NCBI GenBank assembly: GCA_003574885.1
Contig: PJFC01000003.1
Coordinates: 62,001-126,000 of the forward strand
DNA: 64,000 bases
Origin: Geobacter sp.
GTDB lineage: Bacteria > Desulfobacterota > Desulfuromonadia > Geobacterales > Geobacteraceae
Direction of reading: 5' to 3'
The first letter of the stretch is position 1, and each line of letters starts with the position of its first letter. Below, one piece after another: positions 36,387-44,989 of this stretch. A model generated the notes under the pieces. The model saw only the letters and a program-made list of their open reading frames with translations, made no database searches and was not told the origin of the DNA. Both the position numbers and the translations under genes were made by a program.

Positions 36387-37562
36387 TTAAAGATCTTCAC
36401 CTGTCAGGCTGTCATAGATACTTTCAAACATATGTTCCAGTCTGAAAAATATCGCCAGCAGGTTCGGATCAAAGTGATTACGGGGGTCGATCCGATGGTC
36501 CCCATCCCTGAATATGCCGACCGCCTCGGCATGCGTCAGAGGTGATTTGTAACTTCGCTTCGAACGGAGTGCATCATAGACATCTGCCAGCTTGACAATA
36601 CGTCCCGACAGAGGGATCTCGTCTCCCCGCAAGCCACGGGGGTAACCACTGCCGTCCCAGTTCTCGTGATGGGAAATGGCGATCTCGCGAGCAATCTGCA
36701 AACGGGGTGAATCACCCAGTATCTGTTCACCATAAGCCGGATGCATCCTGATTACAGCCAATTCCCGTTCGTTCAGAGGTCCGTCTTTGAGAAGAATTGA
36801 TGCAGGAACCTTGATCTTCCCCACATCATGCATCTGTGCTGAATAGGAAATCACGTCCACATAATCGGCTGACAGTCCAAAATTCGCCGCCAGAGCTCCG
36901 GCATAGCGGTTAACTCTCACAATGTGCCGGCCGGTATCCTCTTCTGCAGCCTCGCAAGCCCTGGCCAGAGACTCGATGGTATAAATGAAGGCCTTTTCCG
37001 TCTCCCTCATCTGGTCGGATATGGTGAACACCGAACTGATTACTACCGCTAAACCGCGAAGGACATCTGCATCATAATCGGTAGCCCGGCCAGGATAGTT
37101 GAAGGCAATGATGGCTCCCGTTGTCTCGCCGCTTATGCGGTAGGTAACGAAGTTACTAATCTCATCGCCGACACATTCCTTGACTGCGGGGGGAAAAAAC
37201 TCCTGGTCCATTTCTACCGTTTTATTGGAAATTACCACATCGGCACGGGTTTCGGCCTGAACCAGAATTCTTGCATAGTCTGCCAAGGTATCGATGGTTA
37301 TCTCACCCGAACGCTCCACAACTTCACCATCACGGAGACTATACACCCGGCCACATAGCAGCCCTTTATCTTTCCCGTTGAACGCAACGTATATACATGC
37401 AGGACCTCGTCTCCCCTTCCCTTTCAACACCATCTGGAGCGCCTTTACAGAAAGCTCCTCACCAGTAAAGCGCTTGCAGCAGATATCCTGCAGAGCCTCA
37501 TCGGTAAGCCTAAGCAACTCCTGGGTCTGTCGCAGGGACATTTCGCAGAGTTCCTGGGACAT
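36387..37562 (-). CDS. HD-GYP domain cyclic dinucleotide phosphodiesterase
   Basis: A 391-residue protein with a GAF-like amino-terminal half (about residues 20-185) and an HD-GYP domain. The metal and signature motifs are complete: GRHIVRVNRY, AQMHDVGKIKVP, HHENWDGSGYPRGLRG and KLADVYDALRSKRSYK. HD-GYP enzymes hydrolyse c-di-GMP, and some cleave 3',3'-cGAMP, the two ligands predicted for the riboswitches 1-3 kb away. ATG 37562 has GAGGAG upstream. It is divergent from the CRP-family gene and has its own good promoter. Confidence 0.92.
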   Translation of the reverse strand: MSQELCEMSLRQTQELLRLTDEALQDICCKRFTGEELSVKALQMVLKGKGRRGPACIYVAFNGKDKGLLCGRVYSLRDGEVVERSGEITIDTLADYARILVQAETRADVVISNKTVEMDQEFFPPAVKECVGDEISNFVTYRISGETTGAIIAFNYPGRATDYDADVLRGLAVVISSVFTISDQMRETEKAFIYTIESLARACEAAEEDTGRHIVRVNRYAGALAANFGLSADYVDVISYSAQMHDVGKIKVPASILLKDGPLNERELAVIRMHPAYGEQILGDSPRLQIAREIAISHHENWDGSGYPRGLRGDEIPLSGRIVKLADVYDALRSKRSYKSPLTHAEAVGIFRDGDHRIDPRNHFDPNLLAIFFRLEHMFESIYDSLTGEDL

Positions 37563-37604
37563 ATGCTCCTCTCTTCCTGTCGGCGCATGCAGCAAAGATG
37601 GCTA

Positions 37605-37633: not shown

Positions 37634-37656
37634 GGACTTATAGATGATTCTGCACC

Positions 37657-37684
37657 TTGACATCAGACCAAAACTAATTATAAT
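37657..37684 (+). promoter_or_regulatory. Promoter for the CRP-family gene
   Basis: Perfect hexamers TTGACA and TATAAT separated by 16 bases. The leader is only about 20 bases and includes the GGGAGGG ribosome site. Confidence 0.78.
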
Positions 37685-37712
37685 AATTTTATTCACAGGG
37701 AGGGAATCGAAT

Positions 37713-38435
37713 ATGTCCGCATACGTGCAACCCTTCAATGTCAGACGGAAGCGGCACTCCGCGGATGTGCTCAAAAATGTTCCGTTTTTTTCCTGTATGA
37801 ACAAGAATGAACTCGAGGAGATTGAAAAACTCCTGACCTCCAAGCATATCTGCAAAAATCAGGTAGTGCTGTTTGAAGAGGATACGCCAAACTACATGTA
37901 TGTCGTTTATTCCGGCAAAGTACGGGCCGTTCACGTGAGCGAGGACGGCAAGGAACGGATACTGGCCATACACAAACGGGGTGACTTTTTCGGCGAAATG
38001 GGTCTCCTGGACGGCAAGACCGCTCCGGCATCGGTTATTGCCATGGAAGACACCGAAATAGGCCTTCTCTCCAAACAAGATTTCGAAAAATTCATGTTAA
38101 AGAACAACAATGTGCTTTTGAATATTATCACTCTGCTCTGCGCGCGATTCAGGGAATCGCTCCTGATGCTCAAGGCCATGAGCTTTGCAAATGCAGAACA
38201 ACGCCTCAGGGAAGTCCTTAACAGCATGGCCAGGTTGTACGGGATCAAAGAACAGCGTGGTGTGATAATAGCCCTTAAACTAACCCACAAGCAAATTGCC
38301 GATTATGCCTCAGTTTCCCGCGAAACAGCTACCCGCCTGCTTGGAAAGCTCACCAGCGATGGGGAGATTGAAATTCTTGCCAACAAAAACATTCTTGTAA
38401 AGTCTAATTTCATGAACAAATTGCAGTGTTTATAA
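37713..38435 (+). CDS. CRP/FNR-family transcription regulator
   Basis: A 240-residue regulator. A cyclic-nucleotide-binding-type barrel occupies about residues 20-130 (GDFFGEMGLLDG), then a dimer helix, then a winged HTH. The recognition helix VSRETATRLL (about 201-210) keeps the Arg-Glu-x3-Arg pattern that lets E. coli CRP read TGTGA. In contrast, the Arg-Ser pair that holds the cAMP phosphate in CRP is replaced (TAPAS after GEMG), so cAMP is unlikely to be the ligand. No FNR-type Cys cluster is present. ATG 37713 has GGGAGGG 8 bases upstream. Two matching operators lie within 1.5 kb downstream. Confidence 0.93.
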   Translation: MSAYVQPFNVRRKRHSADVLKNVPFFSCMNKNELEEIEKLLTSKHICKNQVVLFEEDTPNYMYVVYSGKVRAVHVSEDGKERILAIHKRGDFFGEMGLLDGKTAPASVIAMEDTEIGLLSKQDFEKFMLKNNNVLLNIITLLCARFRESLLMLKAMSFANAEQRLREVLNSMARLYGIKEQRGVIIALKLTHKQIADYASVSRETATRLLGKLTSDGEIEILANKNILVKSNFMNKLQCL

Positions 38436-38507: not shown

Positions 38508-38620
38508 GATAGACGACAATACTAAACCATCCGCAAGGGTGGGACGGAAAGCCCAAGGGTCTCACCGAGACAGCCGGGTCGCCGAAATATCTGAAATGAT
38601 ATTCAGCCCCGGCTTTTTTG
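38508..38620 (+). promoter_or_regulatory. GEMM-I riboswitch 1, cGAMP-type, with terminator
   Basis: Matches the GEMM-I aptamer: ACTAAACC, a GCAA tetraloop hairpin, GGGACGGAAAGCC, a second hairpin and GCCGGGTCGCCGAA. The base equivalent to G20 of the Vc2 c-di-GMP riboswitch is A, as in 3',3'-cGAMP-selective Geobacter members. The aptamer's last segment AGCCGGG can instead pair with CCCCGGCT at 38606-38614 to form a terminator with six T (to 38620), so ligand binding should permit read-through (ON switch). No gene follows directly; the next element is riboswitch 2. Confidence 0.9.
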
Positions 38621-38698: not shown

Positions 38699-38741
38699 TG
38701 TGACACAGGTCACAACTTTTTTTCAAAGATTACTGTATTGC
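38699..38741 (+). promoter_or_regulatory. CRP-consensus operator and extended -10 promoter for riboswitch 2
   Basis: TGTGACACAGGTCACA (38699-38714) is a perfect TGTGA-N6-TCACA palindrome. An extended -10 (TG then TATTGC, ending 38741) follows, placing the operator centre about 41 bases before the expected start, the class II CRP arrangement. There is no good -35, as expected for an activated promoter. The CRP-family gene just upstream is the likely regulator (inference). Confidence 0.75.
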
Positions 38742-38765: not shown

Positions 38766-38880
38766 GATACACGACAATACTAAACCATCCGCAAGGATGG
38801 GACGGAAAGCCCAAGGGTCTCATCGAGACAGCCGGGTCGCCGAAATATCCTTCATAGATATTTTGCCCCCGGCTTTTCTG
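38766..38880 (+). promoter_or_regulatory. GEMM-I riboswitch 2, cGAMP-type, with terminator
   Basis: Nearly identical to riboswitch 1: ACTAAACC with A at the ligand-selecting position, GCAA tetraloop, GGGACGGAAAGCC and GCCGGGTCGCCGAAATAT. The terminator pairs AGCCGGG and AAATATC with GATATTTT and CCCCGGCTTTT. It is the leader of the fibronectin-dockerin gene at 38931 and is expected to be an ON switch. Confidence 0.92.
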
Positions 38881-38930
38881 CGTTCAGGCCACCATGTTTC
38901 CGGGGCAATTATATGGAGGTAGTAACCGAC

Positions 38931-39812
38931 ATGCTTAGAGCCCTTGAAACATTTGCGTGTCATAGATGCCGTTTAAGCGCCATCACGATTCAAAGACTCT
39001 TTCTCTTTCTCATCATCTCTCTTTTTCTCCCTCTTTTTGCCGTAACCACTACCTTTGCAGCACAGACTACCCTCGCATGGGATCCGCCGGTTAATGCCGA
39101 CGGCACTCCGTTCACCGGTGTTGCAGGATACCACCTGTATTTCGGAACGTCATCCGGCACCTACTCCCAGAGCGTCAACGCCGGCAACGTAACAAGCTAT
39201 ACCATCAGTAATCTGGCCGAAGGGGCGACCTATTATTTCGCCGTTACCGATTACGACGCTGCAGGCAACGAAAGCGCCTATTCCAACGAGGTCAGCAAGA
39301 CATTTTCCGCTACCTACTCACTGACAGCAACTGCAGGCACTGGTGGCACGATATCGCCGGTTGGCAGCATAACGACAAGCACTGCAACTAACGGGACATA
39401 CATCATAAAGTCGGTCACGGCACCCCAAGGCACCAACGTCTCTTTCACGGTAACGGCAAATCAGGGTTACCAGTTATCAAACGTTACGGTTGATGGGATC
39501 TCGGCCGGTAAAATTTCTTCCTATACCTTCAACAACATAAACAGCAACCATTCAATAACGGCCACCTTCACTACAACGGCTGGCACTACCCCGCTCAAAG
39601 GGGATGTTGATAGTGACGGCGTCGTATCTCTCGACGATGCACTCACGGTCCTTCGATCTGTTACCAATAACGCTCAACTGACAACCGATCAAAAATCGCG
39701 GGCCGATGTCTGGCCGCTCGATGCATCAGGAAAACCGCTGGGTGATGGTAGTGTCAATCTGAATGACGCGCTCCTCATACTGCGGAGAGCTGTTGGACTG
39801 GTTACCTGGTAG
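38931..39812 (+). CDS. Secreted fibronectin type III protein with dockerin-like end
   Basis: A 293-residue exported protein. A long signal peptide (hydrophobic about residues 21-43, ending FAA) is followed by a fibronectin type III domain (QTTLAWDPPVNADG to about 130), one bacterial beta-repeat (about 130-210) and a dockerin-like end with two calcium-type loops (DVDSDGVVSLDD and GDGSVNLNDALLILRR). I moved the start from the upstream ATG at 38913 to 38931, because the 38913 ATG lies inside the GGAGG ribosome site and the paralogue at 40287 uses the matching position. It is controlled by a CRP-type operator and by riboswitch 2, perhaps also riboswitch 1. Role likely at the cell surface, in adhesion or matrix. 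Confidence 0.88.
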   Translation: MLRALETFACHRCRLSAITIQRLFLFLIISLFLPLFAVTTTFAAQTTLAWDPPVNADGTPFTGVAGYHLYFGTSSGTYSQSVNAGNVTSYTISNLAEGATYYFAVTDYDAAGNESAYSNEVSKTFSATYSLTATAGTGGTISPVGSITTSTATNGTYIIKSVTAPQGTNVSFTVTANQGYQLSNVTVDGISAGKISSYTFNNINSNHSITATFTTTAGTTPLKGDVDSDGVVSLDDALTVLRSVTNNAQLTTDQKSRADVWPLDASGKPLGDGSVNLNDALLILRRAVGLVTW

Positions 39813-39856: not shown

Positions 39857-39899
39857 TGTGATAAGGGTCACCGTTTTTTCTCGAAAATTCCTGTAATAG
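39857..39899 (+). promoter_or_regulatory. CRP-type operator and extended -10 promoter for riboswitch 3
   Basis: TGTGATAAGGGTCACC (39857-39872) fits TGTGA-N6-TCAC with one mismatch. The extended -10 box (TG then TAATAG, 39894-39899) starts exactly 35 bases after the operator start, the same distance as in the copy at 38699. Confidence 0.72.
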
Positions 39900-39922
39900 T
39901 TTATGTAACAATTGAATAGAAG

Positions 39923-40037
39923 TGATACACGATAATACTAAACCATCCGCAAGGATGGGACGGAAAGCCTAAGGGTCTCACCGAGACAGCCGGGTCGCCG
40001 AAATATCCTTCATAGGTATTTTGCCCCCGGCTTTTCT
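39923..40037 (+). promoter_or_regulatory. GEMM-I riboswitch 3, cGAMP-type, with terminator
   Basis: Third copy of the same aptamer (ACTAAACC, GCAA loop, GGGACGGAAAGCC, GCCGGGTCGCCGAAATAT), again with A at the selector position, followed by the overlapping terminator ending CCCCGGCTTTT. Read-through leads into riboswitch 4, which is of the c-di-GMP type. Confidence 0.92.
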
Positions 40038-40109
40038 GTGTCTTGTAAGATTTGAAATAACAGCCACCTACTGAATGATTTAACAATAAGAAGAGAGGTG
40101 AAACAAACA

Positions 40110-40216
40110 GGAAGCACGCACCAGCTTGAAAAGGGCAAACCGTCCGAAAGGGCGGGACGCAAAGCCGCTGGCCTAAGTCCCCGTACAAGGGATATGGCAG
40201 CAGGGATGCCAGGCGA
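40110..40216 (+). promoter_or_regulatory. GEMM-I riboswitch 4, c-di-GMP-type
   Basis: Canonical c-di-GMP-I form: GGGCAAACC, a GAAA tetraloop hairpin, GGGACGCAAAGCC, the GGCCTAAG receptor, then a second hairpin and CCAGGCGA. The selector position is G as in Vc2. GCTTG near 40124 and CAGGC near 40212 can close the outer stem. Its sequence is far from the three upstream copies, so it is not a recent duplicate. No terminator follows; control is probably at translation through the next hairpin. Confidence 0.88.
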
Positions 40217-40222
40217 ATATTC

Positions 40223-40281
40223 AGTACCTCATGTGAATGGGCTGATTTCGTTATGGCGAATAACCCAAACATGGAGGTACT
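40223..40281 (+). promoter_or_regulatory. Anti-Shine-Dalgarno hairpin before the repeat protein
   Basis: AGTACCTC (40223-40230) is perfectly complementary to GAGGTACT (40274-40281), which contains most of the GGAGG ribosome site of the GTG start at 40287. Neighbouring ATGT and ACAT extend the stem past a one-base bulge. The left arm begins just after riboswitch 4, so aptamer folding can be linked to exposure of the ribosome site. Confidence 0.72.
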
Positions 40282-40286
40282 AAATC

Positions 40287-42077
40287 GTGAAAACTCTCTG
40301 CCAGACACTACATAAGTTCGACCATTACTTCTACCGCTCGTTAGCCTTAATGACGCTAATAACTATTATGGTGATCCATCTCGCATCGACCTATGTCCAT
40401 GCCGCCCAGACGACACTGGCCTGGGATCCGCCGGTCAACTCCGACGGAACCCTCTATGCGGGCGTCAGTGGCTACAAGCTCTACTGGGGGACTACCTCTG
40501 GCAACTACACTCAAAATATTGACGTGGGAAATGTAACCTCGTATACCGTCAATAATCTCTCGGATGGGTCAACCTACTATTTTGCCGCTGTCGATTATGA
40601 CGCAGCAGGCAATACGAGTGGGTACTCCAACGAGACGAGCAAGAATCTTCCTTTCACCTACTCCCTGACGGGAACTGCCAATGCCGGCGGTACGATATCA
40701 CCGGTAGGCACCGCAACGACAAGCACCGCCACCAGCGGAACTTCAACCATCACCTCAGTGACAGTCACCCAGGGTGCGACCCAGACATTTTCCATAACAC
40801 CCAATTCCGGTTACGCTATCGCCAATGTTGCAGTTGATGGGATTTCGGTCGGCGCAGTTACCAGCTACACCTTCTCCAACGTCACCGCCAATCACACCCT
40901 GACCGCAACCTTTGCAAGCTTCACCGCATCCAGCACCTTTACCGTTACCGCCACTACGGGCACCGGCGGCAGCATCTCCCCGTCCGGAACATCAACTGTC
41001 AGCTCAGGCGGAAGCCAGGCATACACTATCACCCCTAACGTCGGTTATTATACTGTCAACGTGTCTGTTGACGGAACGATCGTAGCGTCAAATCTTGGTG
41101 GTTACAATTACACGTTCAGCAATGTAACGGCAAATCATACCATTTCGGCAACATTTGGCGTAGCGACCTACACGATAGCTGCATCGGCCGGCACCGGAGG
41201 CAGCATCTCGCCTGTCGGAACGACGCGCGTAAATTACGGAACGAGCCAGTCTTACACCATTACCCCTGCAACCGGGTACTCAATAGCCAGCGTGACCGTA
41301 GATGGAACCTCCGTTGGCGCGGTCTCTGCTTACACTTTCAGCAGTGTGAATGTCAACCATACGATCGCCGCAACCTTTGCACCGACCACCATTTCAAGTT
41401 ACTCCATCACAGCATCAGCCGGCACTAACGGCAGTATTTCTCCCAGCGGCACAGCAACCGTCAGTTCAGGTGGAAGCCAAGCGTACACCATCACCCCTAA
41501 CGTCGGTTACTACACTGTCAGCGTGACTATTGACGGGACGGTCGTCGCATCAAACCTTGGTGGTTACAATTACACTTTCAGCAATGTAACGGCCAACCAC
41601 AGCATCTCGGCAACATTCGGCATAGCCTCCTACACAATAACTGCATCGGCCGGTACCGGCGGCAGCATCTCGCCTGTCGGGACGACGCGTGCAAATTACG
41701 GAACAAGCCAGACTTACACCATTACCCCTGCAACCGGGTACTCAATAGCAAATGTCACCGTGGATGGAATCTCTGTTGGCGCGTTATCCAGCTATACATT
41801 CAACAATGTGAATGGAAACCATACGATCGCCACAACCTTCGCACCGACCACCATATCTAGTTACACCATCACGGCGTCGGCCGGCATAAACGGCAGTATT
41901 TCCCCCAGCGGCACGACGAGCGTTACTTCCGGTGGCAGCCAGACCTATACTATTACCCCTCTAAAAGGCCATAAAATCACCAGTGTGCTGGTTGATGGCA
42001 TCTCTGTCGGGGTTGTTAAATCCTATGTGTTCTCAAATGTAAAGGCAAACCATACCATCCAGGCAAATTTCAAGTGA
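40287..42077 (+). CDS. Secreted fibronectin type III protein with six beta-repeats
   Basis: A 596-residue exported protein paralogous to the one at 38931. The signal peptide (hydrophobic about residues 19-38) ends HAA and is followed by QTTLAWDPPVNSDG and a fibronectin type III domain (to about 120). Six repeats of about 75 residues fill the rest, each with a GG-x-ISP-x-GT turn, YTITP and a VDG-x-xVG strand. Repeats 2-3 and 4-5 are near duplicates, showing a two-repeat unit that has doubled. It has no dockerin. The start is GTG with GGAGG 9 bases upstream, held in a hairpin. Two riboswitches of different ligand type precede it. Likely an extracellular matrix or adhesin protein. Confidence 0.9.
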   Translation: MKTLCQTLHKFDHYFYRSLALMTLITIMVIHLASTYVHAAQTTLAWDPPVNSDGTLYAGVSGYKLYWGTTSGNYTQNIDVGNVTSYTVNNLSDGSTYYFAAVDYDAAGNTSGYSNETSKNLPFTYSLTGTANAGGTISPVGTATTSTATSGTSTITSVTVTQGATQTFSITPNSGYAIANVAVDGISVGAVTSYTFSNVTANHTLTATFASFTASSTFTVTATTGTGGSISPSGTSTVSSGGSQAYTITPNVGYYTVNVSVDGTIVASNLGGYNYTFSNVTANHTISATFGVATYTIAASAGTGGSISPVGTTRVNYGTSQSYTITPATGYSIASVTVDGTSVGAVSAYTFSSVNVNHTIAATFAPTTISSYSITASAGTNGSISPSGTATVSSGGSQAYTITPNVGYYTVSVTIDGTVVASNLGGYNYTFSNVTANHSISATFGIASYTITASAGTGGSISPVGTTRANYGTSQTYTITPATGYSIANVTVDGISVGALSSYTFNNVNGNHTIATTFAPTTISSYTITASAGINGSISPSGTTSVTSGGSQTYTITPLKGHKITSVLVDGISVGVVKSYVFSNVKANHTIQANFK

Positions 42078-43990: not shown

Positions 43991-44989
43991 ATGCTCAGAG
44001 AACAAGACAACAGTCAGACATCATTGGAGTTTGTAAGCATCGAGCAGTTGGTTCCAAAGGATCATTTGCTGCGCAAAATTGACAGGATCATTGACTTCGG
44101 TTTCATTCGAGAGAAGGTCAAAGATCTCTATTGCGCCGACAACGGTCGTCCGGCAATTGATCCGGTGGTGCTGTTCAAGATGCTCTTCATCGGCTATCTC
44201 TATGGCATCCGTAGCGAGCGGCAGTTAATCCGGGAGATTCAGGTCAATATGGCTTACCGCTGGTTTATCGGATACGGCCTCACTTCCAAGATCCCGGATG
44301 CCTCAACGCTTAGCCAGAATCGCCGTCGCCGCTTTACAGAGAGCACGATCTATCAGGACATTTTTGACGAAATCGTCCTACAGGCGATAAAGCGCAAGAT
44401 GGTTGAGGGAAAGATTCTCTACAGCGACTCAACCCACCTCAAAGCCAACGCCAACAAGAACAGATACGTGCTAAAAGATGTGCAGAAATCGACGCTGGAC
44501 TATCTGGAAGCTCTTGAAACAGATGTTGCCAAGGACCGGGAAGGCCAAACCCTCAGCTACCGTACTACCGACCGCTTAGGTTACCGCCATTACGCCTCCA
44601 ATCCTGAATTATGCTCAACATGTCCGATACGCAATAGCTGCACGAGATCGGCGAATTGCACCAAAGTCGTCACCCGGCATGTTTGGCAAGATAGTAAGGA
44701 CCGGATCAACAGCCATCGTCATACTGACGTTGGGAAACAGATCTATGCTCGACGCAAGGAGACTGTGGAACGTAGCTTTGCTGATTCGAAGGAGCTGCAT
44801 GGTCATAGGTATGCCAGACGAAGGGGCCTAAAGAAGGTCTTCGAGCAATGCCTGCTCTGCGCAGCAGTGCAAAACATGAAGAAGATAGCGCTGGTGGTCA
44901 GCAAGAAGGATTTATTGCTTTATTTGCGCTTGATCTGGCAGCTTGATTGGAGTTATGAAGCAGCTTTATTGCGAGCTTGTGCCGGATAG
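43991..44989 (+). CDS. IS1182-family transposase with internal in-frame deletion
   Basis: A 332-residue protein of the DDE transposase type. The amino part has the DUF772-like region (YCADNGRPAIDPVVLFKMLF, SKIPDASTLSQNRRRRF) and the first catalytic Asp in ILYSDSTHLKANANKN. The carboxy part has the zinc-type CSTCPIRNSCTRS and the catalytic Glu region ETVERSFADSKELHG. Family members are about 450-480 residues and have a block between these parts with the second Asp, typically LDAGY. Here the coiled segment ending DREGQ runs directly into TLSYRTTD, so roughly 120-140 residues including that Asp are missing while the frame stays open. The protein should be inactive alone. No clear ribosome site precedes the ATG. 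Confidence 0.88.
   Translation: MLREQDNSQTSLEFVSIEQLVPKDHLLRKIDRIIDFGFIREKVKDLYCADNGRPAIDPVVLFKMLFIGYLYGIRSERQLIREIQVNMAYRWFIGYGLTSKIPDASTLSQNRRRRFTESTIYQDIFDEIVLQAIKRKMVEGKILYSDSTHLKANANKNRYVLKDVQKSTLDYLEALETDVAKDREGQTLSYRTTDRLGYRHYASNPELCSTCPIRNSCTRSANCTKVVTRHVWQDSKDRINSHRHTDVGKQIYARRKETVERSFADSKELHGHRYARRRGLKKVFEQCLLCAAVQNMKKIALVVSKKDLLLYLRLIWQLDWSYEAALLRACAG

Follow-up and report, generated by a model that had tools for sequence, protein, structure and literature searches.

Can a single mRNA leader read two different cyclic dinucleotides and act on them at two levels of gene expression? The question is raised by the leader of a repeat-protein gene of a Geobacter sp., which starts at position 40287 of the window, i.e. 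the whole stretch of 64,000 nucleotides that we analysed (G000:C10:62001-126000, part of a 3.47-Mb genome). The first-pass annotation described in this leader a GEMM-I aptamer with A at the ligand-selecting position and an overlapping terminator, then a canonical GEMM-I aptamer with G at that position (given as 40110-40216), and finally a hairpin hiding the ribosome site. Its coordinates are correct to within a few bases (Table 1). We propose, with a probability of about 0.7, that the leader is a dual-ligand, two-level riboswitch whose likeliest logic is ON for both ligands, an AND gate. First, cGAMP bound to the GEMM-Ib aptamer would block the overlapping terminator and let transcription continue. 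Then c-di-GMP on the GEMM-I aptamer would set whether the Shine–Dalgarno (SD) sequence is accessible or sequestered by the hairpin that follows.

Table 1. Features of the gene 40287 leader and of the related upstream gene (window positions)
Feature	Position	Strand	Description
First A-type aptamer of gene 38913	38511-38586	+	cmscan 46.1 bits
Second A-type aptamer of gene 38913	38769-38844	+	cmscan 48.3 bits
Related gene 38913, next upstream FN3 gene	38913-39812	+	299 aa; two A-type aptamers in leader
CRP/FNR-like palindrome	39857-39872	+	TGTGATAAGGGTCACC; 65 nt upstream of first aptamer; 9/10 consensus bases
First aptamer including P1	39919-40011	+	GEMM-Ib (cGAMP) type; RF01051 core 39927-40002
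Intrinsic terminator	39988-40037	+	Uses 3' P3 strand of first aptamer
P0, candidate competitor strand for anti-SD	40095-40100	+	GAGGTG; 6-bp complement to 40225-40230
Second aptamer	40124-40214	+	Canonical c-di-GMP-I type; RF01051 match 40124-40213
SD-sequestering hairpin	40223-40281	+	Anti-SD AGTACCTC (40223-40230) pairs with GAGGTACT (40274-40281)
Regulated gene 40287	40287-42077	+	596 aa; N-terminal stretch, FN3-like domain, Divergent InlB B-repeats (adhesin-like)

Two aptamer subtypes in the leader of gene 40287

At the Rfam gathering cut-off for RF01051 (35 bits), cmscan places four aptamers in the window, all on the + strand, at 38511, 38769, 39927 and 40124. Position 11 of RF01051 is A in the first three and G in the last, and this position is A in c-AMP-GMP aptamers and G in c-di-GMP aptamers (PMC9481103). 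Both aptamers of gene 40287 exceed the cut-off in the covariance search that had been suggested for them, the first with 49.6 bits (E = 1.1e-6) and the second with 81.4 bits (E = 1.8e-14). Their selecting bases are A39937 and G40134, respectively, and A39937/C39938 correspond to A14/C15 in 4YAZ, a cGAMP riboswitch structure (PMC6274999). P1 of the first aptamer, as read from the sequence, pairs 39919-39927 with 40004-40011, and P1 of the second pairs 40124-40128 with 40210-40214. The alignment also bears out that the two aptamers diverge strongly beyond the conserved core. The whole genome holds 23 RF01051 matches, 15 with A and eight with G by alignment column 16.

The terminator of the first aptamer is formed by AGCCGGG (39988-39994), which is complementary to CCCGGCT (40026-40032), and a T-rich tail, TTTTCT, follows. 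Since the 39988-39994 strand is common to the aptamer P3 and the terminator, the two structures are mutually exclusive, so the overlap described earlier is upheld. The terminator hairpin is present in the MFE fold and is conserved in two orthologues (L024 and L025). In G. metallireducens, the terminator of the pilM cGAMP switch, which is a transcriptional ON switch, likewise excludes the aptamer (PMC9262584). By homology with such Geobacter switches, from which both its ligand and its sign would follow, we infer a cGAMP transcription-ON switch.

Gene 40287 begins with a GTG codon. Its product matches Flg_new_2 in four stretches (E = 1.4e-17) and fn3 with 23.0 bits (E = 9.6e-5), slightly below the 25-bit cut-off; judging from these domains it is a secreted FN3/B-repeat protein, probably with a surface or adhesion role. 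In gene 38913, fn3 exceeds the cut-off (28.7 bits), and the dockerin and B-repeat matches are weak, slightly below their cut-offs. A CRP-family regulator with cNMP-binding and HTH_Crp domains (37644-38435, +) and a protein that has an HD_5 domain together with HD and GYP-like motifs (36387-37595, −), possibly a cyclic-dinucleotide phosphodiesterase, adjoin the riboswitch genes, and ORFs resembling both adjoin the two orthologous loci. Downstream of the repeat-protein genes lies a transposase gene (DUF772, DDE_Tnp_1_6; 43991-44989, +). A small ORF, 40098-40283, spans the second aptamer and has a possible SD that overlaps its own GTG.

The ribosome-site hairpin and the second switch

The SD of gene 40287, GGAGGT (40273-40278), lies 8 nt upstream of the GTG and is covered by the helix of AGTACCTC with GAGGTACT. 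AGTACCTC starts eight nucleotides past P1 of the G aptamer, and the aptamer core and the hairpin, which folds at -23.8 kcal/mol, do not overlap. For comparison among genomes we built a covariance model of the G aptamer and the SD hairpin together (R2) from nine leaders. In a set of 31 high-scoring, non-duplicate leaders, which was aligned by R2 itself and is hence biased toward the model, 91.4% of the SD-helix cells are paired and seven of the eight pairs show changes on both sides. None of 500 shuffles reaches any of five whole-structure measures in this set, and partners slid along the SD helix are only 36-47% paired. P1, P2 and P3 of the second aptamer covary as well, and the selecting base is G in every leader but L206, which has A (30 of 31). 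In a MAFFT alignment of the nine leaders, pairing of the SD helix reaches 87.5%, one pair is changed on both sides, and four of the five measures outdo 498 or more of the 500 shuffles; the fifth, pair types, is not above chance, since 96 of 500 shuffles reach it. The hairpin over the ribosome site, as first claimed from one sequence, is thus shown by covariation. The second switch likely acts on translation, presumably in response to its ligand.

We compared partition functions with and without an imposed aptamer, for full and nascent RNA of ten leaders, and found no ligand-dependent release of the SD. In the full leaders the SD hairpin dominates in nine of the ten (0.74-1.0) and L152 is split. 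The transcription/translation two-input gate of the first-pass annotation accordingly survives in part: both platforms are present and the subtypes differ, whereas in folding the imposed aptamer leaves the SD paired.

A candidate for opening the hairpin is the P0 strand, which as GAGGUG can pair with UACCUC (40225-40230) around the second aptamer. P0 is invariant across three orthologues, and GGAGGU strands resembling it precede the aptamer by 22-34 nt in further leaders from this order; L153 and L040 have a weak version or none. P0 does no more than modestly better than shuffles: in the window leader p = 0.0375; individual leaders range from 0.03 to 0.61, with combined values of 0.006 for nine related leaders and 0.03 for one leader per genus. 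A broader test of flank pairing, run against a long 3' target (p = 0.08-0.94), lends P0 no support. As a general mechanism P0 was rejected, since the leaders from outside the window's order show no GGAGGU-like strand. In nascent RNA without the SD, the P0 helix is likely in five of the ten leaders (0.55-1.0 unconstrained). Imposing the aptamer does not consistently strengthen it there, and in the window leader its probability falls from 0.80 to 0.23. Because the SD hairpin dominates once the SD is present and the P0 helix is not consistently strengthened by the aptamer, ON would have to be a kinetic effect, as yet unproven: with the second aptamer closed, pairing of GAGGUG with the anti-SD would be favoured during mRNA synthesis. 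The weakest step of the proposal is the sign of this second switch. We lean slightly toward ON, regard OFF as a distinctly less probable sign, and consider a lack of any ligand effect the least probable of the three.

With the opposite sign, the gate would compute cGAMP AND NOT c-di-GMP. The second switch would then be a translational OFF switch in which the bound aptamer lets the anti-SD close the SD hairpin, and protein would be made only at high cGAMP and low c-di-GMP. The adjacency and compatibility of aptamer and hairpin suit this logic, as does the stability of the SD hairpin in nine of ten leaders, and the competitor strand that the ON model requires is not general. Physiology points the same way: the cGAMP synthase GacA is inhibited by c-di-GMP (PMC6456294), and the levels of c-di-GMP and cGAMP vary inversely in G. 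metallireducens (PMC12285248), so that an AND-NOT gate would sharpen the cGAMP state. However, OFF requires a partner that holds the SD open without ligand, and no conserved one was found; the GAGGUG strand around the aptamer, invariant in the three orthologues, is a better fit to ON. On balance we regard the AND-NOT logic as rather unlikely.

We give considerably less credence to a second aptamer that does not switch at all, in which case the SD hairpin would be a fixed attenuator and cGAMP the sole regulator. The lack of ligand dependence in folding is what such an attenuator predicts, and one locus before the same kind of gene, L156, carries a degenerate last aptamer. The retained selecting G and the covariation of P1, P2 and P3 described above speak against it, and so do the G-only leaders of the FN3 gene family, in which the second aptamer is retained without the first switch.

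Conservation of the mixed pair and wiring of the FN3 gene family

Among the R2 matches listed for 141 genomes of the order, 12 exceed 110 bits and the next scores 75.6. Ten of the 12 are preceded by an A-type aptamer in the same orientation, in seven genera of two families (genomes G000, G001 and G002 of genus g1, G006 of g3, G009 of g5, G036 contig 26 of g10, G041 and G045 of g13, G118 of g24 and G122 of g26); in three of these leaders (L027, L031 and L032) two A-type aptamers precede the G aptamer. The other two matches are in G048, with G only in the region read, and on G036 contig 70, where the contig extends only 496 nt upstream of the match. All 12 precede genes with aligning FN3-like segments that are 50-84% identical to that of the window. 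G003, the fourth member of the window's genus (93% complete), has nine RF01051 matches and no strong R2 match among those listed.

The order of the pair was compared in a sample of 100 loci (L024-L123), comprising the two orthologous loci and 98 of 100 regions around the best listed RF01051 matches of the family, which are biased to the G type. Its 147 aligned aptamers include 108 with G, 38 with A and one unreadable. Neighbours within 400 nt are G-G in 18 cases, A-G in ten, A-A in five and G-A in none. Mixed neighbours are thus A-then-G in ten of ten, although several of these pairs are orthologous and hence not independent. Separate from the FN3 leaders, L046 (1466-1822) and L076 (1530-1843, −) hold A-G pairs in front of another secreted-protein gene, with terminators after both, and the Ib core is missing from the A-type aptamers of these two loci; L065 (1195-1562, +) has a similar tandem before the same kind of gene, with G in its first aptamer. 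In L162, an A-G pair precedes an unrelated gene and TCTCCCTT/AAGGGAGA cover its SD.

An ordinary same-signal, two-level tandem, in which both aptamers answer one ligand in the cell, has the lowest probability of the alternatives: they share one Rfam family, and it has been suggested that GEMM-I switches with predicted cGAMP specificity may respond to c-di-GMP too (PMC12285248), but the letters at the selecting position are opposite, the pgcA GEMM-Ib switch is ~1200-fold selective for cGAMP (PMC6456294) and the mixed pair is conserved in the seven genera.

For the FN3 gene family we examined 80 loci with an FN3-like match. R2 exceeds 85 bits in 26 of them, seven from Geobacter relatives and 19 from others such as Nitrospirae, Nitrospira, Desulfobacterales, Syntrophaceae and Spirochaetota; L196 matches in the aptamer part only, and the match in L242 lies ~1 kb from the FN3 match. 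A second model, R1, which is without P3 because its alignment misplaced that helix and which was used only for aptamer detection and classing, has hits in 42 of the 80. When aptamers no more than 700 nt ahead of the FN3 match are counted, these 42 loci carry G only (20), A only (12), A-G (four: L174, L190, L208 and L215), G-G (three: L196, L198 and L234), A-A (L176, with an A-G pair further on), A-A and then a degenerate aptamer (L211, three A-type altogether) or none (L242). The A-only class is clear in six Geomonas loci and L177, weak (26-41 bits) in L188, L195, L214 and L241, and completed by L206. The window itself has A-A before gene 38913 and A-G before gene 40287, and the MAG of an uncultured Geobacter (A14_bin-2059) has G only before one FN3 gene (L175) and A only before another (L177). 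In L206 (2234-2387, from a Nitrospira sp. MAG), the FN3 leader has both aptamer and SD hairpin with A at the selecting position, possibly a natural ligand switch in a ribosome-site riboswitch. The locus seen as L156 (1501-1581) and L211 (2197-2277), with three A-type aptamers, a degenerate last aptamer and the SD hairpin kept before an FN3 gene, is a decayed mixed array.

Upstream of the first aptamer lies the CRP/FNR-like palindrome, whose first base is also where the first-pass annotation set its start. In both orthologues (L024 and L025) the site has 10/10 consensus bases, all at -65. By itself the search pattern, TGTGA-N6-TCACA with at least 9/10 bases, is not rare: it occurs four times in the window at one mismatch against 1.92 expected, and 12 of 100 shuffles reach four. 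One further site (38699-38714) precedes the second A-type aptamer of gene 38913 by 65 nt; since it falls between the two aptamers of that gene, the first may belong to a longer transcript. Across distinct upstream regions, a CRP-like site accompanies Ib-type aptamers in 15 of 34 (14 at 60-71 nt and one at 101) and is absent in 19, and it occurs in six of 24 regions of other A-type aptamers (at 53-77 nt) and in six of 144 of G-type aptamers (at 64-125 nt). In this genome it is found at two of the 15 A-type aptamers (L009 and L012), both in FN3 leaders, and the mixed FN3 leaders L031 and L032 are without it. The fixed spacing suggests that the site may be a third input to gene 40287; a class II activator site at this place would imply a transcription start near 39906. 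A promoter between the aptamers was considered and rejected: the weak sigma-70-like match at 40052-40079 is not conserved in the two orthologues, and 2.8 such matches are expected by chance in a 2-kb region.

Supply of the ligands, known systems and meaning

The genome has 18 GGDEF matches in 17 genes, of which 13 have the canonical Asp and two are degenerate. One gene is of the Thr type (GHFAGT and GGDEF) and one of the Ser type (GHLVGS and GGDEY), the latter with a receiver-like N-terminus and a hisS-like neighbouring frame, both identified by eye. Hypr enzymes are reported to be recognisable by Ser or Thr together with GGDE[F/Y] (PMC6456294), which makes a GacA-like cGAMP synthase a candidate product of this genome. 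With this candidate and the 13 Asp-type genes, both cGAMP and c-di-GMP are probably made in the cell. Two sensors of the cGAMP and c-di-GMP types in series mean that one gene probably responds to both messengers, and a two-input gate on gene 40287 is a well-founded deduction, with ligand binding as its predicted part.

Each ingredient has precedents: GEMM elements occur in tandem, and both two-ligand gates and two-level tandems have been described. Geobacter GEMM-Ib tandems, for example before GSU2885 omcAHG, share the aptamer type, the terminator and two GEMM elements per gene (PMC6456294); unlike in gene 40287, both aptamers of that tandem are GEMM-Ib, and the part of the source consulted mentions neither a c-di-GMP partner nor a ribosome-site platform. 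The AdoCbl/c-di-GMP-I and AdoCbl/c-AMP-GMP gates of Desulfobacca acetoxidans, with ligand preference backed by in-line probing, similarly place a G- or A-type GEMM aptamer in a two-ligand series, but their partner is cobalamin and no leader described there pairs two cyclic dinucleotides (PMC9481103, in the portion available). In the same source, the SAM-II/SAM-V bi-mechanism tandem also puts transcription first and ribosome access second, with one ligand for both in contrast to the two subtypes here, and the 347 doublets and 12 triplets of c-di-GMP-I place RF01051 aptamers in series as a single class, treated as same-ligand with no A/G split in the text at hand. GEMM-regulated FN3 genes are described in G. 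bemidjiensis (PMC2996986) and G. sulfurreducens (KN400_1971; PMC13194489), the latter source also describing a GEMM mutation before an FN3 gene that arose in long-term electrode cultures; in the sections of these papers that we used, mixed aptamers and a ribosome-site platform, as in gene 40287, go unmentioned. A cGAMP/c-di-GMP pair is absent from the gate table of PMC9481103 and was not found elsewhere in the literature surveyed, as far as those partial texts extend, and an earlier mention in Kellenberger 2015 or Nelson 2015 is possible.

A fuller reading of the dual-ligand AND gate, which we offer tentatively and think somewhat doubtful as a whole, is a conserved RNA coincidence detector for two mutually opposing cyclic dinucleotides. 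An older c-di-GMP translational switch would have controlled FN3 surface-protein genes from Nitrospirae to Desulfobacterales. In Geobacter relatives, transcriptional control by cGAMP would have been placed ahead of it, in many cases together with a CRP-like promoter site, so that a single mRNA carries three stacked inputs; other FN3 genes, including some from the same genomes, would keep cGAMP-only or c-di-GMP-only control.

If the ligands are confirmed, some of the doublets of PMC9481103, to the extent that the source details them, would be two-signal gates and not same-signal steepeners. The locus makes it testable how Geobacter-type cells distinguish cGAMP from c-di-GMP while c-di-GMP inhibits the cGAMP synthase, and the FN3 gene family, with cGAMP-type sensors, c-di-GMP-type sensors or both, provides a ready comparison set.
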